Part shown: positions 18,889 through 26,002 of the stretch, one piece after another | Layout of the letters: the number at the start of each line of letters is the position of its first letter | Numbering within the stretch: the first letter of the stretch is position 1 | NCBI GenBank assembly: GCA_902778375.1 | Contig: CACYXJ010000044.1 | Span: 1 to 33,968, forward strand | Length of the DNA: 33,968 nucleotides | Direction: 5' to 3' | Origin: an uncultured Erysipelotrichaceae bacterium | GTDB taxonomy: Bacteria; Bacillota_I; Bacilli_A; Erysipelotrichales; Erysipelotrichaceae | Program-made: the position numbers and the translations under genes | Notes under the pieces: generated by a model | Told to the model about the DNA's origin: nothing | What the model saw: only the letters and a program-made list of their open reading frames with translations | Database searches by the model: none

Positions 18889-21220
<2,332 letters not shown>

Positions 21221-21234
<14 letters not shown>

Positions 21235-21883
21235 GAAGGAATTTACCCATTTCATGCTTGCCTGCAACGCTCTCAAGTTCGGTGATTTCACCCTGAAGAG
21301 CGGCCGCAAGTCACCGTTTTTCATGAATGCCGGCGCTTATGTCACCGGCGGCCAGCTCCATGATCTTGCCTGCTATTACGCAAAGGCGATCCATGACAAT
21401 TTCGGACTCGACTTCGATGTTCTCTTCGGACCGGCCTACAAGGGCATCCCGCTGGCAGTGGCAACCGCCATGGCCATCCACGAACTCTATGGCAAGGAAG
21501 TGCGCTACTGCTGCAACCGCAAGGAAGTCAAGGACCACGGCGATACCGGCATCCTGCTGGGTTCAAAACTGCAGGACGGCGACAGGATCATCATGATCGA
21601 AGATGTCACGACCAGCGGCAAGTCGATGGAAGAGACCGTGCCGATCGTCAGAAGCCAGGCAAACGTCGAGATCAAGGGCCTGATCGTTTCCCTCAACCGC
21701 AACGAAAAAGGCAAAGGCGATATCACAGCCCTTCAGGAAGTGTCCGAACTGTACGGCTTTCCGACGGCTGCCATCGTTTCCATGCCGGAAGTCGTGGAGA
21801 TACTGAAGGAAGAAAACATGCTCGATGACGAGCTGCTCGGACGCATCAACGCTTATTATGAGCAGTACGGCGCCAGAGCATAA
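21221..21883 (+). CDS. pyrE: Orotate phosphoribosyltransferase
   Basis: PyrE joins orotate with PRPP to form OMP, feeding PyrF. The 220-residue protein has F-T-L-K-S-G-R-K-S-P-F-F near residue 25, L-F-G-P-A-Y-K-G-I-P-L-A near 70, and the PRPP-binding motif I-I-M-I-E-D-V-T-T-S-G-K-S near 126-138. The start is the ATG seven bases after AAAGGAG. The upstream in-frame TTG at 21203 includes this SD and is unlikely. pyrF-before-pyrE is a reaction-reversed order but common. A terminator follows. Confidence 0.96.
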
Positions 21884-21990: not shown

Positions 21991-22599
21991 ATGAAAAAGA
22001 TAATCATTACAATGGCGTCTGTCATGTTTCTTATGATTTCCGGATGCGGTTCCGGACAGATGGATACCGGAAGTACAGACAACAGTACGGCAGCAGAAAC
22101 CGCGGCGGATAAGACAGGCGGGCAGCAGGAACAGACAGCAGATAATGAAATCAGCGAGGAAGAAGCTCTCAGGATCGCTCTTGAGGCTGCGGGGCTGAAG
22201 GAAAGCGATGTGAAGATCACCAAACGGGAATTCGATGTTGACCACGGCATCGCAAAATATGAATTCGAATTCTGGCACAATGATGAAAAGTATGAATTCG
22301 AAATCGATACTGCCGGAGTGATCCTCTCCCGCAGCAAAGAATACACCGTGCCGGCAGATACGGCGGCAGCGGAAAAAACGCCGGAAGGATTCATCAGCCG
22401 GGAAGAGGCGCTTGCCATCGCCCTGAAACATGCCGGTGTCAGCGAAAATGACATATTCAAGGTGGAAATCAAGCTGGACAATGAACATGGCAGGGACGAA
22501 TACGATATCGAATTCCATGCCGGCGGCAAGGAATACAGCTATGATATCAATGCCCAAAGCGGCGAAATCACAGGCTTTGAATCGGAGATCGATGACTGA
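21991..22599 (+). CDS. Lipoprotein with two PepSY domains
   Basis: The 202-residue product has a short signal peptide with lipobox M-I-S-G-C (C19 is the lipidated residue), then a Ser/Thr/Glu/Gln-rich linker to about residue 48. Two similar units follow: E-E-E-A-L-R-I-A-L-E-A-A-G-L ... K-Y-E-F-E-I-D (about 50-110) and R-E-E-A-L-A-I-A-L-K-H-A-G-V ... E-Y-S-Y-D-I-N (about 132-200). Both are classic PepSY (inhibitor-like) domains. It would sit on the outer face of the membrane. PepSY proteins can inhibit proteases or act as sensors; no partner is in the window. SD GGGGTG precedes the ATG, and a terminator follows. Confidence 0.9.
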   Translation: MKKIIITMASVMFLMISGCGSGQMDTGSTDNSTAAETAADKTGGQQEQTADNEISEEEALRIALEAAGLKESDVKITKREFDVDHGIAKYEFEFWHNDEKYEFEIDTAGVILSRSKEYTVPADTAAAEKTPEGFISREEALAIALKHAGVSENDIFKVEIKLDNEHGRDEYDIEFHAGGKEYSYDINAQSGEITGFESEIDD

Positions 22600-22608
22600 G
22601 CGGACCAG

Positions 22609-22632
22609 GGATGACAAACGTCATCCTTTTTT
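22609..22632 (+). terminator. Terminator after the PepSY lipoprotein gene
   Basis: GGATGAC / GTCATCC with loop AAAC and six T. Confidence 0.9.
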
Positions 22633-22634
22633 GG

Positions 22635-22664
22635 TTGACGGCGGGAAAGAAAGGGAATGATAAT
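22635..22664 (+). promoter_or_regulatory. Promoter of the DAC-like gene
   Basis: TTGACG (22635-22640), an 18-base spacer and GATAAT (22659-22664). It supports a start at 22698 rather than the open upstream codons from 22611. Confidence 0.65.
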
Positions 22665-22697
22665 GAAGATGTAAAATGCCTGAAGGGGGAAATGATC

Positions 22698-24038
22698 ATG
22701 AATTTCTGGGAACAGCTGATCGACGGCGGGGGAACCCGGGAAGACTTGTATTTTAAGACCCGCGATCTGTACGGGAATCTTTTGAAGCACCTGTACAACG
22801 ACCCGCGCAATATACCTGATTTCCGCATTCACTTTTCCGATGACAGCCGGACAGTGGAAGAAGGAATCGAGAAGGGCTACTGCATCTCCACCGTGTCCAT
22901 GCGGTCGAACAAGATCACATATTCGATCGTCAAGGATGTCGCCGAACTCGAAAACTTCGAGAATTCCTATAACTGGTTCTACGAAGACGTGTTTGTCGTG
23001 TTCGATTTTCTTGAAGATTCCATTTCGCCGCTGCTGTTCATCACCCGTGCCTTCTGGGAGGACCTCTTTCGCCAGTATGACGTGCTGGGCCTGCGCAAGG
23101 TACGTATCTCGCACATGTACGAGACACTGATCTCATCCGGCGTATCGCAGTATTTCCACGGCTTCTATCAGCTCGATATCAGTCTGATCCAGACCCTCTC
23201 GGCACTGACCTATGAAGGCGACTATATCAACTGTTCGATCCTGATTCCCCGCTATGACCACGGCACGGAAAGAAGGACGAAGAAGAACGGCGGCCTGGAT
23301 GTCGCACTCAAGGAACCCGTTCCGTTCGCTGTCAGCCATCTGCGCCAGGTCAGGAAACTGGTCGAGATGTCCGACAAGGATGTCGCCCTGGTCGTCAACC
23401 GTCAGGGAAAGATCTGCGGTCTTTCCTCCAGCAAGCCTGCCGCCTACGAATGCTATCTGCGGATGTGGGGACACCTGAGCTGGACGATCACCTACAACGA
23501 AAACAAGAAGCTGTCATATTACAATGCCGGCTATCATATCCATACCCGCTACAGCCATGACGTGGAGATCACCCGCAGCCTCGGCAATATCGGCGAGATG
23601 CTGACAAAGGAACAGAGCGCCAGGATCGAAGCGGTGATCCGTGCCGCCTCGACCCAGAGCCACGGGACGATCCTGATCATCGGTGTGAAGGAAGATGCGG
23701 AAAACGAGACCAAACGTCTGTGCGACGCCAGGAGCGCGACCGGCATCAGCACCATCAATCTCAGCGAGAAGATGCATCTGATCCGCTATCTGACATCGAT
23801 CGACGGCGCCCTGATCATGGATATTGACTGCCGCTGCGGCTGTATCGGCGCGATTCTCGACGGCGACTTCACGACCAAAGGCAATCCGGCCCGCGGCGCC
23901 CGCTTCAATTCGACAGTGCGTTATGTCAAAAGACGTTCGGAACTGGGACAGCATTTCGTCGGTATCGTTCTTTCCGAGGACGGCACGATCGACGCTGTCA
24001 GCGAAGACCGTATCGAACGCATCAATCTTTCCGAATAA
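22698..24038 (+). CDS. DisA_N/DAC-like nucleotide-binding domain protein
   Basis: The 446-residue protein has an N-terminal region of about 300 residues that I cannot assign. The C-terminal part (about 325-440) looks like a diadenylate cyclase (DAC, DisA_N) domain: H-G-T-I-L-I-I-G-V, D-G-A at 369-371, a hydrophobic turn with C-I-G-A-I-L-D-G, R-G-A-R-F-N-S at 399-405, and the strand I-V-L-S-E-D-G-T-I. In active cyclases D-G-A and R-H-R bind ATP; here the second motif is R402-F-N, so activity is uncertain. It could make c-di-AMP, bind it, or use another nucleotide. There is no transmembrane segment, unlike CdaA. SD AAGGGGG is eight bases before the chosen ATG; a second ATG six bases earlier is in frame. 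It stands alone between a terminator and the next promoter. Confidence 0.72.
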   Translation: MNFWEQLIDGGGTREDLYFKTRDLYGNLLKHLYNDPRNIPDFRIHFSDDSRTVEEGIEKGYCISTVSMRSNKITYSIVKDVAELENFENSYNWFYEDVFVVFDFLEDSISPLLFITRAFWEDLFRQYDVLGLRKVRISHMYETLISSGVSQYFHGFYQLDISLIQTLSALTYEGDYINCSILIPRYDHGTERRTKKNGGLDVALKEPVPFAVSHLRQVRKLVEMSDKDVALVVNRQGKICGLSSSKPAAYECYLRMWGHLSWTITYNENKKLSYYNAGYHIHTRYSHDVEITRSLGNIGEMLTKEQSARIEAVIRAASTQSHGTILIIGVKEDAENETKRLCDARSATGISTINLSEKMHLIRYLTSIDGALIMDIDCRCGCIGAILDGDFTTKGNPARGARFNSTVRYVKRRSELGQHFVGIVLSEDGTIDAVSEDRIERINLSE

Positions 24039-24137: not shown

Positions 24138-24143
24138 TATAAT
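24138..24143 (+). promoter_or_regulatory. -10 element before the pRiA4b ORF-3-like gene
   Basis: A perfect TATAAT. It spans the in-frame ATG at 24142, so that ATG cannot be the start. No clear -35 is seen. The stretch 24039-24137 has no clear terminator, only CCGGG-ATGA-CCCGG without a T run. Confidence 0.5.
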
Positions 24144-24162
24144 GGAGCTCAGGAGGAAGATC

Positions 24163-24780
24163 ATGGAATACAGAAAATACCGCGTAAGCCTGCAGGTTTA
24201 TCCCGACCGGCTCTATCGTACCTTTTATATCCGCACCGATGTGACGCTGGATAAACTGGCTGAAGTCATTCTGAAACTGTTCCGTACGGACGAAACCCCT
24301 GCCTATGTGTTCTTCGATACGGAGCACAGTTATACGACAGACATGTTCGTGCACATGAACCCAAAGGGTGATTATCTGGATGCCCTGACCAACAATCCCG
24401 ATCTGAATGATGTCTGGGAAAACAAAAAACCGATGAATGCCTGCCGGCTGTCCGATATGGGGGACGAGTTCTGTTTTCTGTATGACGTGGATGAAGGCTA
24501 CAGATTTGTCTGCGAGGCATGCGGTGAACCCGTTGATGAAGACCGCGAAGATTATGTTTACGTAACAGAAGGCAAAGGGGCGGGCATCTTCGAAGATGAC
24601 GTGTACACACTGTGGTCCTATTTTGACGGCGGCGCCGATCCTGACATGAGCGAGGACGACGATGAAAAGGAATTCTACATGCCGGAGAATCTGGAACTGG
24701 AAAAACTCGGCGACTTCGAGAAACCGCTGGACCTTGAGGAAGAAACAGAGATTGCCGCAAGTGCTTTCGAAGAGGAATAA
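24163..24780 (+). CDS. pRiA4b ORF-3-like family protein
   Basis: The 205-residue product starts at the ATG after AGGAGG (six bases). Residues 1-125 resemble the plasmid pRiA4b ORF-3 domain: Y-R-V-S-L-Q ... I-R-T-D-V-T-L-D-K-L-A-E-V-I-L-K-L-F near the start and a later F-C-F-L-Y-D-V-D-E-G-Y-R-F (the family usually has Y-x-Y-D-F-G-D). A Cys pair (C-E-A-C near 125) and an acidic tail (E-D-D-D-E-K-E, then E-E-E) follow. The family is widespread next to mobile genes but its function is unknown; no mobile element is seen here. It is cytoplasmic and likely monocistronic. Confidence 0.72.
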   Translation: MEYRKYRVSLQVYPDRLYRTFYIRTDVTLDKLAEVILKLFRTDETPAYVFFDTEHSYTTDMFVHMNPKGDYLDALTNNPDLNDVWENKKPMNACRLSDMGDEFCFLYDVDEGYRFVCEACGEPVDEDREDYVYVTEGKGAGIFEDDVYTLWSYFDGGADPDMSEDDDEKEFYMPENLELEKLGDFEKPLDLEEETEIAASAFEEE

Positions 24781-25024: not shown

Positions 25025-26002
25025 ATGGCTGTTGTTTCAATGAGGAAAATGCTCGAAAACGGGGTACATTTCGGACACCAGACACGCAAGTGGAATCCGC
25101 AGATGAAACCCTACATCTACACTGCCAAGAACGGTGTCTACATTATCGATCTTGAAAAGACAAGAGAATGTCTGGAAAAGGCTTATGCCGAACTCAAGAA
25201 GATCACCGAAAACGGCGGCAAGGTTCTCTTCGTAGGTACGAAGAAGCAGGCGCAGGCCACGATCCTGGAAGAAGCACTCCGTTCCGGAAGCTTCTATGTC
25301 AACCAGAGATGGCTGGGCGGCACCATGACAAACTTCCGCACCATTCAGAAGTCCATCAAGAGACTGCTGGAAATCGAAGAGATGGAAAACAGCGGAACGA
25401 TCAACGTCTACACCAAGAAGGAACAGGCTAACCTGCTGAAAAAGAAGGACAGACTGGACAACTTCCTTGGCGGTATCAAGGAAATGAAGAAGCTTCCGGA
25501 TGCCGTATTCGTCGTTGACCCGCTCGAAGAACACAATGCAGTTGCCGAAGCAAGAAAGCTGGGTATCCCGGTATTCGCTCTGATCGACACAAATGCCGAT
25601 CCGAACTCCGTCGATTATCCGATTCCTTCCAATGACGACGCAGTGCGTTCCGTCAAACTGATGGTCAGCCTGATCGCCGACGCCATTGTCGAAGCAAAGG
25701 GCGGCGTTCTGGAAAATGCCTACCAGGAAGACCTGACAGACGGCGACATCACAATGGAAGATGTCATCATCAACGTCGAACAGCAGGCTGCTGAATACGA
25801 GCGCAAGAGAAGACAGAAGTATGAAGAGCGCCGTCAGCAGATGCAGCAGAGAAGATACAACGGCGAACGCCGTGTCTTCCGCAGAGACGCAAACAATGCC
25901 CGTCCGGCCCGCACAGAAGCTGCGCCGGCTGAGGTAAAGGAAGAAAAACCGGCTGAAGCTGCCGCACCGGCAGCAGCACCGGCTCAGGAGGAGAACGCAT
26001 AA
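25025..26002 (+). CDS. rpsB: 30S ribosomal protein S2 with C-terminal extension
   Basis: S2 sits on the 30S head-body junction. The N-terminus [25 protein letters not shown] is diagnostic. [23 protein letters not shown] and I-D-T-N-A-D-P follow in order. The core ends near residue 245. The protein goes on to 325 residues with an Arg/Gln-rich helix ([16 protein letters not shown]) and an Ala/Pro/Glu tail, longer than the usual 240-260. The frame is open upstream to 24956 through the leader hairpins, which is not coding. The stop overlaps tsf as TAATG. Confidence 0.97.

Follow-up and report, generated by a model that had tools for sequence, protein, structure and literature searches.

The window, a stretch of 33,968 nucleotides from contig CACYXJ010000044.1 of an uncultured Erysipelotrichaceae bacterium, contains a gene for a protein whose C-terminal part resembles diadenylate cyclases (DACs) but has R-F-N at the position of their R-H-R motif. 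The locus raises the question whether this protein synthesises c-di-AMP, makes another nucleotide or is an inactive sensor. Our best explanation, to which we give a probability of about 0.58, is that this member of the DACNH-DAC family is a soluble synthase of a nucleotide signal, encoded by a single gene, in which the active site has been remodelled; most simply, it would convert ATP to c-di-AMP. Table 1 gives an overview of the features of the locus.

Table 1. Features of the DACNH-DAC locus and its borders (positions refer to the window, residue numbers to the encoded protein)
Feature	Positions	Strand	Basis or remark
pyrE-like phosphoribosyltransferase gene, left border	21203..21883	+	name inferred from domain and operon
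Terminator-like hairpin and T run closing the preceding gene	22607..22628	+	
Promoter-like TTGACG-18-GATAAT for the DAC gene	22635..22664	+	10/12 matches
Shine-Dalgarno AAGGGGG	22683..22689	+	8 nt 5' of ATG 22698; from sequence
DACNH-DAC protein gene	22698..24038	+	446 aa; ORF prediction, PF21750 and NF053872 matches, AF2 model
N-terminal domain, residues 1-157	22698..23168	+	without Pfam match; here restricted to the Erysipelotrichaceae clade; weakly GAF-like in predicted structure
DACNH domain, residues 158-288	23169..23561	+	predicted fold nearest to DAC domains, without DGA/RHR
Y172-E173 of DACNH	23211..23216	+	E173 invariant, Y172 nearly so; alignments A3, A4
R219-K220 of DACNH	23352..23357	+	invariant pair; alignments A3, A4
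DAC-fold catalytic-type domain, residues 289-446	23562..24035	+	Foldseek, VIA, 2fb5 profile match
DGA motif D369-G370-A371	23802..23810	+	D369 and G370 kept throughout the 69 sequences
L387-D388-G389	23856..23864	+	typical of the family; not seen in any of the 30 canonical DACs compared
R399-G-A-R402-F403-N404	23892..23909	+	family motif at the canonical RHR position
S426-E427-D428	23973..23981	+	equivalent of canonical SEE
rpsB, bordering the insertion site on the right	25028..26002	+	

The gene had been predicted to begin with the ATG at 22698, and both the open reading frame and this start are borne out, a Shine-Dalgarno sequence lying at the appropriate place in front of it. A start at 22611, which would give a longer open reading frame, was ruled out because that ATG lies inside the terminator-like hairpin. 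Inspection by eye revealed an equivalent hairpin with a different but still pairing stem in three close relatives (L022, L023 and L024), which together with the window form the window clade. In all four members the hairpin and T run are followed by a TTGACGG and then a GATAATG block upstream of the gene (again by eye), and blocks of the ATTGACGG / GATAATG type are kept in 4/4 (window sequence: GTTGACGG). Promoter-like sites numbered 6 in the region compared to 3.6 expected. With terminator-like, promoter-like and Shine-Dalgarno signals of its own, the DAC gene looks like a separate transcription unit, as far as can be read from the DNA. The dN/dS values of 0.05-0.14 in nine pairs of relatives indicate purifying selection.

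An AlphaFold2 model, built on an alignment of 69 family sequences with 21-83% identity to the window protein, reached a pLDDT of 89.9 and a pTM of 0.69. In a Foldseek comparison with the PDB the top 38 rows were all DACs (CdaM, CdaA/DacA, DisA; E 1.2e-5 to 1.1e-3), and the following row had an E value of 0.28. The 40 best rows of VIA-align were likewise all DACs, with Z scores of 10.9-13.0 over residues ~285-446, in most cases 300-446; the absence of a row from the VIA lists carries no weight. Furthermore, a profile built from the DAC-part sequences matched 2fb5 of B. cereus among the PDB sequences (E 0.009), in a register that places DGA on DGA, RGxRYN on LGTRHR and SED on SEE. PDB sequence searches with P0001 and with the A2 profile gave nothing useful, and the Pfam DAC model PF02457 did not match the window protein up to E 10; the same model matches 47 of the 69 family members at E <=0.01. 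Structure comparison and the 2fb5 alignment bear out the original prediction of a DAC-like C-terminal part, and the DAC fold of the modelled C-terminus is well supported. A better structural match to a non-DAC fold, named at the outset as the refuting outcome, was looked for, and only DACs stood in the top Foldseek and VIA rows. The protein shares the fold and the DGA motif with CdaA, CdaM, CdaS and DisA (PF02457). Unlike CdaA-type enzymes, it has no N-terminal transmembrane helices. Indeed, the predicted absence of a membrane anchor is confirmed by the highest 19-residue Kyte-Doolittle mean of 1.57, which overlaps a predicted beta strand. A Pfam scan of the window protein revealed neither a DisA nor a CdaA accessory domain.

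The D-G-A motif is present at residues 369-371 as predicted, and R-F-N (residues 402-404) does occupy the R-H-R position. It is not an oddity of a single protein but a family signature: R-G-[AS]-R-[FYL]-N was found in 92/92 family loci from many phyla (RGARYN 47, RGARFN 23, RGSRYN 16, RGSRFN 5, RGARLN 1). These comprise the window, 7 plasmid, 80 genome and 4 viral-contig loci. The genome loci are the best 80 of 256 relatives and were found by a pattern around ILDG, not by RGxRxN, while the 4 viral loci are biased towards the motif, since one of the two search patterns was RG[AS]R[FY]NS. The constancy of ILDG in the 84 genome and viral loci is partly due to selection, as ILDG was part of the search pattern; LDG is kept in 7/7 plasmid loci, which were found by tblastn. 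In contrast to CdaA, CdaM, CdaS and DisA, the window family thus has R[FYL]N for RHR and, in addition, the invariant LDG and R399; all 30 canonical DACs that were fetched as PF02457 matches carry GxRHR. The columns of the DAC part that are invariant in the 69 sequences are G323, E337, D369, G370, G384, I386, L387, D388, G389, R399, G400, R402, N404 and Y409. Random decay of the RHR motif was ruled out, because the same replacement occurs at 92/92 loci and dN/dS is low. Neither the R-x-N motif nor a description of DACNH as a DAC fold was found in the literature search, whose reach did not extend to a census of DACs from 2023 (PMC10127676, a reference of PMC13092281) and a 2015 survey (PMC4678834).

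The statement that the N-terminal 300 residues match nothing known holds, at the level of sequence, for residues 1 to ~155. It does not hold for residues 164-248, which match PF21750 (DACNH) with 36.7 bits (cut-off 27), the sole Pfam domain in the window protein. DACNH is matched in 69/69 family members, and besides the residues listed in Table 1 the positions E223, G241 and W262 are near-invariant in this domain. Residues 1-165 of the Erysipelotrichaceae proteins did not match the relatives in their N-terminal region. Residues 1-290 were also modelled alone (pLDDT 92.9, pTM 0.89). Foldseek gave no match to this model at E <=0.001. With VIA the 20 best rows were all DAC domains (Z 5.8-7.6), with 102-111 residues aligned at 3.1-4.0 A over model residues ~146-281 (19 of the 20 rows; one from 111), and the next rows were GAF domains (Z 4.5, residues ~8-135). 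GAF rows on residues 6-135 reached a Z score of 4.8 at best, which is weak. VIA scores of Z <8 may reflect merely a common arrangement; nevertheless, one family, the DACs, stands at the top of the list and DACNH is fused to a true DAC, which favours a real relation between DACNH and DAC. Sequence comparison by hhalign gave insignificant scores, namely 13.9 with a profile of canonical DACs and 18.5 with the DAC part of the family itself; the latter score was reached by 0/100 column shuffles, with only 25 columns aligned in a register unlike the structural ranges. A DACNH profile (A6) found no DAC among the PDB sequences. In Pfam, PF21750 is described as a "Probable sensor domain", whereas its model here resembles a DAC fold without the motifs. 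We hypothesise that DACNH may be a second, motif-less DAC fold in tandem with the catalytic one.

Within the window clade the DAC gene lies between pyrE and rpsB. Eight other genomes of the same genus have a pyrE-rpsB gap of 212-369 bp with no DAC gene between, and the gene order in L022 is pyrE-DAC-rpsB. According to this, the DAC gene came to this site as one unit, or disappeared as one unit from the others. A PepSY-domain lipoprotein-like gene (21991-22599) is found directly upstream of the DAC gene in the window; since pyrE is directly followed by the DAC gene in L022-L024, only the window genome of these four has it. A PRiA4_ORF3-like gene (24142-24780) separates the DAC gene from rpsB; L023 and L024 share this gene, and L022 lacks it. 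Compared to the products of pyrE, pyrF, rpsB and tsf, which are 89-97% identical between the window and L022-L024, the DAC protein with 78-83% identity evolves faster. Its distribution is patchy: the gene occurs in 9/35 other genomes of the genus and in 0/24 genomes from a different family within the order. A phage origin of the window gene was ruled out, as there was no match in 50,697 phage records and the gene is bordered by core genes; a search for viral fold matches of the protein gave none at E <=0.001.

Among the genomes of a named collection, MAGs of Erysipelotrichaceae and 'Solobacterium' are nearest to the host; several of them come from sheep or goat gut. The host is a rumen bacterium. 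In a quick tree of 69 rows the 29 Erysipelotrichaceae rows form one clade with a support of 99, and their common N-terminal domain, which they have in place of DACNG, could be aligned. A total of 31 Erysipelotrichaceae loci from 22 assemblies was obtained, with two copies in 9 of the 22 as counted from the accessions. In six two-copy assemblies one copy lies between an rpiR-type regulator gene and ftsH (6/6), and the other is located upstream of a 2-oxoacid-dehydrogenase-acyltransferase-like gene (6/6) and downstream of a trypsin-like gene (5/6; the contig of L048 ends there), sometimes with extra genes between. The two copy sets branch compatibly in the tree. No partner gene is conserved over the whole Erysipelotrichaceae clade. 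A phylum-wide sample searched with the NF053872 model yielded the window's own genome alone (1/295), which points to a blindness of the model or of the sampling to sister copies.

Some observations concern more remote loci. Distant DACNH-DAC relatives occur in four viral_contigs (IMG/VR) records (L102-L105), one of which (L103) also has a CD-NTase, so that such systems may travel on prophages. Three Priestia plasmids (L017, L019, L021) carry divergent DACNH-DAC genes without a DACNG match, and in L019 a nucleotidyltransferase gene adjoins the DAC gene on the opposite strand. In L085 five consecutive genes of cluster c11 on the minus strand form a putative paralogue array downstream of the DAC gene, and the gene of Eubacterium sp. 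14-2 (L095, 9374-10732) is an outlier of the family with a very long branch of 2.11 changes per column.

A possible function is suggested by antiphage defence. DefensePredictor led to the validated system DS-2, which consists of a phospholipase, a cGAS-like enzyme and a DAC; mutation of two predicted catalytic residues of this DAC abolished defence, 15/30 DS-2 homologues lie near a CBASS, and the accessible part of the report gives no product for the DAC (PMC13092281). The model NF053872 (DS2_3_antiphage), whose link to the third gene of DS-2 we take from its name, comprises DACNH and, after it, a DAC domain remodelled in the same way as that of the window protein. It matches 69/69 family members at E <=0.01 and covers residues 140-434 of the window protein, but at 150 bits compared to an equivalog cut-off of 630. 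Also unlike DS-2, the window protein has no DACNG domain, which is present in L015, L020 and 35/69 family members, and its gene is neighboured by the genes for the PepSY protein and PRiA4_ORF3 and by rpsB, with neither CD-NTase nor patatin genes found. Patatin-nucleotidyltransferase-DAC clusters of a DS-2-like layout were found in L015, L020, L096 and L071. A home-made CD-NTase profile matched within the fetched flanks at 8/53 non-Erysipelotrichaceae loci versus 0/31 Erysipelotrichaceae loci (Fisher p 0.024, with loci that are not independent); both flanks reached at least 3 kb at 37/52 and 19/30 loci with a callable gene, respectively. In the 92%-complete window genome SMODS had no match. PADLOC gave no match, and a SAVED search showed no signal even in the controls, so that its negative outcome carries no weight. 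A role of the window gene as part of a CBASS was rejected. Thus, it is only through distant relatives that a defence or stress role of the window protein is suggested.

The host genome was predicted to deserve a check for another DAC, and one is present: a canonical CdaA-like protein (L001) is encoded beside what we take to be a YbbR-like gene. GdpP is encoded in the genome as well. The c-di-AMP riboswitch RF00379 was searched for and not found. The presence of CdaA and GdpP suggests canonical c-di-AMP turnover, and the host probably handles c-di-AMP through these two proteins.

How the protein could work as a synthase may be outlined as follows. The N-terminal domain, perhaps together with DACNH, would sense a signal. 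Since a DAC domain requires a second one facing it head to head (PMC8573169), the window protein would either dimerise or use DACNH as the partner, and the N-terminal domain may gate this pairing. Head to head with another DAC-fold domain, the DAC domain would condense two nucleoside triphosphates, with DGA, LDG, RGxR[FY]N and SxD taking the roles that DGA and RHR have in canonical enzymes, and the product would be c-di-AMP or a near relative. The activity, the gating by a signal and c-di-AMP or a close relative as product are inferred. Some other cyclases build a single active site from a pair of unequal domains. In the same way DACNH might pair head to head with the DAC domain, within or between chains, as a tandem asymmetric cyclase that, with RGxR[FY]N and LDG replacing RHR, produces a signal distinct from housekeeping c-di-AMP or controlled separately from it, in both CBASS-linked and stand-alone chromosomal forms; we regard this extension as possible but doubtful.

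It counts against a synthase that the window protein has no Pfam DAC match and that the family is devoid of the RHR motif. DGA and RHR are described as common to all DACs studied and as required for activity, and replacement of RHR by AAA in CdaS abolished c-di-AMP synthesis (PMC4568413). The protein could be a catalytically dead DAC-fold sensor which binds c-di-AMP or ATP from the cell, the former made by CdaA, and relays this through its N-terminal domains. With the histidine and the second arginine of RHR gone, a canonical CdaA already in the genome and the lack of a partner gene conserved over the clade, such a sensor deserves consideration. But DG, LDG, R399, R402 and N404 do not vary even between strongly diverged proteins, which is the pattern of a catalytic site, and DS-2 defends only with the predicted catalytic residues of its DAC intact (PMC13092281). 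The invariant polar residues together with these mutants argue against an inactive sensor, which we consider unlikely. Rather than a dead copy, the protein probably represents a functional enzyme of nucleotide signalling from a branch that has received little study.

The remodelled triphosphate pocket could also give a different product, i.e. a mixed, pyrimidine-containing, linear or longer nucleotide. The whole family has the non-canonical R399, N404 and D388 invariant at or near the RHR position, and a canonical c-di-AMP synthase is encoded alongside, as is a CD-NTase in relatives. Nevertheless, the contacts reported for S. aureus DacA are those of D176/G177 to the ribose and of T207 to the phosphates (PMC6368335), so changes at such positions need not alter the base, and we judge a different product to be rather improbable. 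A convergent fold outside the DACs, which would agree with the missing Pfam DAC match of the window protein and with a weak hhalign score between the family DAC profile and the canonical one (P 0.048, probability 1.1), is very improbable in view of the Foldseek and VIA rows, the 2fb5 match in the right register and the PF02457 matches in most of the family.

The window protein belongs to a family that is known, though hardly characterised, and that truly differs from textbook DACs; within this family it falls in a stand-alone branch distinguished by its own N-terminal domain. A large DAC family that spans phyla, that is without RHR in all 92 loci examined and that includes one published defence case needing the predicted catalytic residues implies either a second solution for DAC catalysis or a different product. 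If DACNH is a second DAC fold, this would bear on how DAC domains are paired and switched on. In the Erysipelotrichaceae branch the system consists of one gene and is not coupled to CBASS, which allows the enzyme to be studied by itself.
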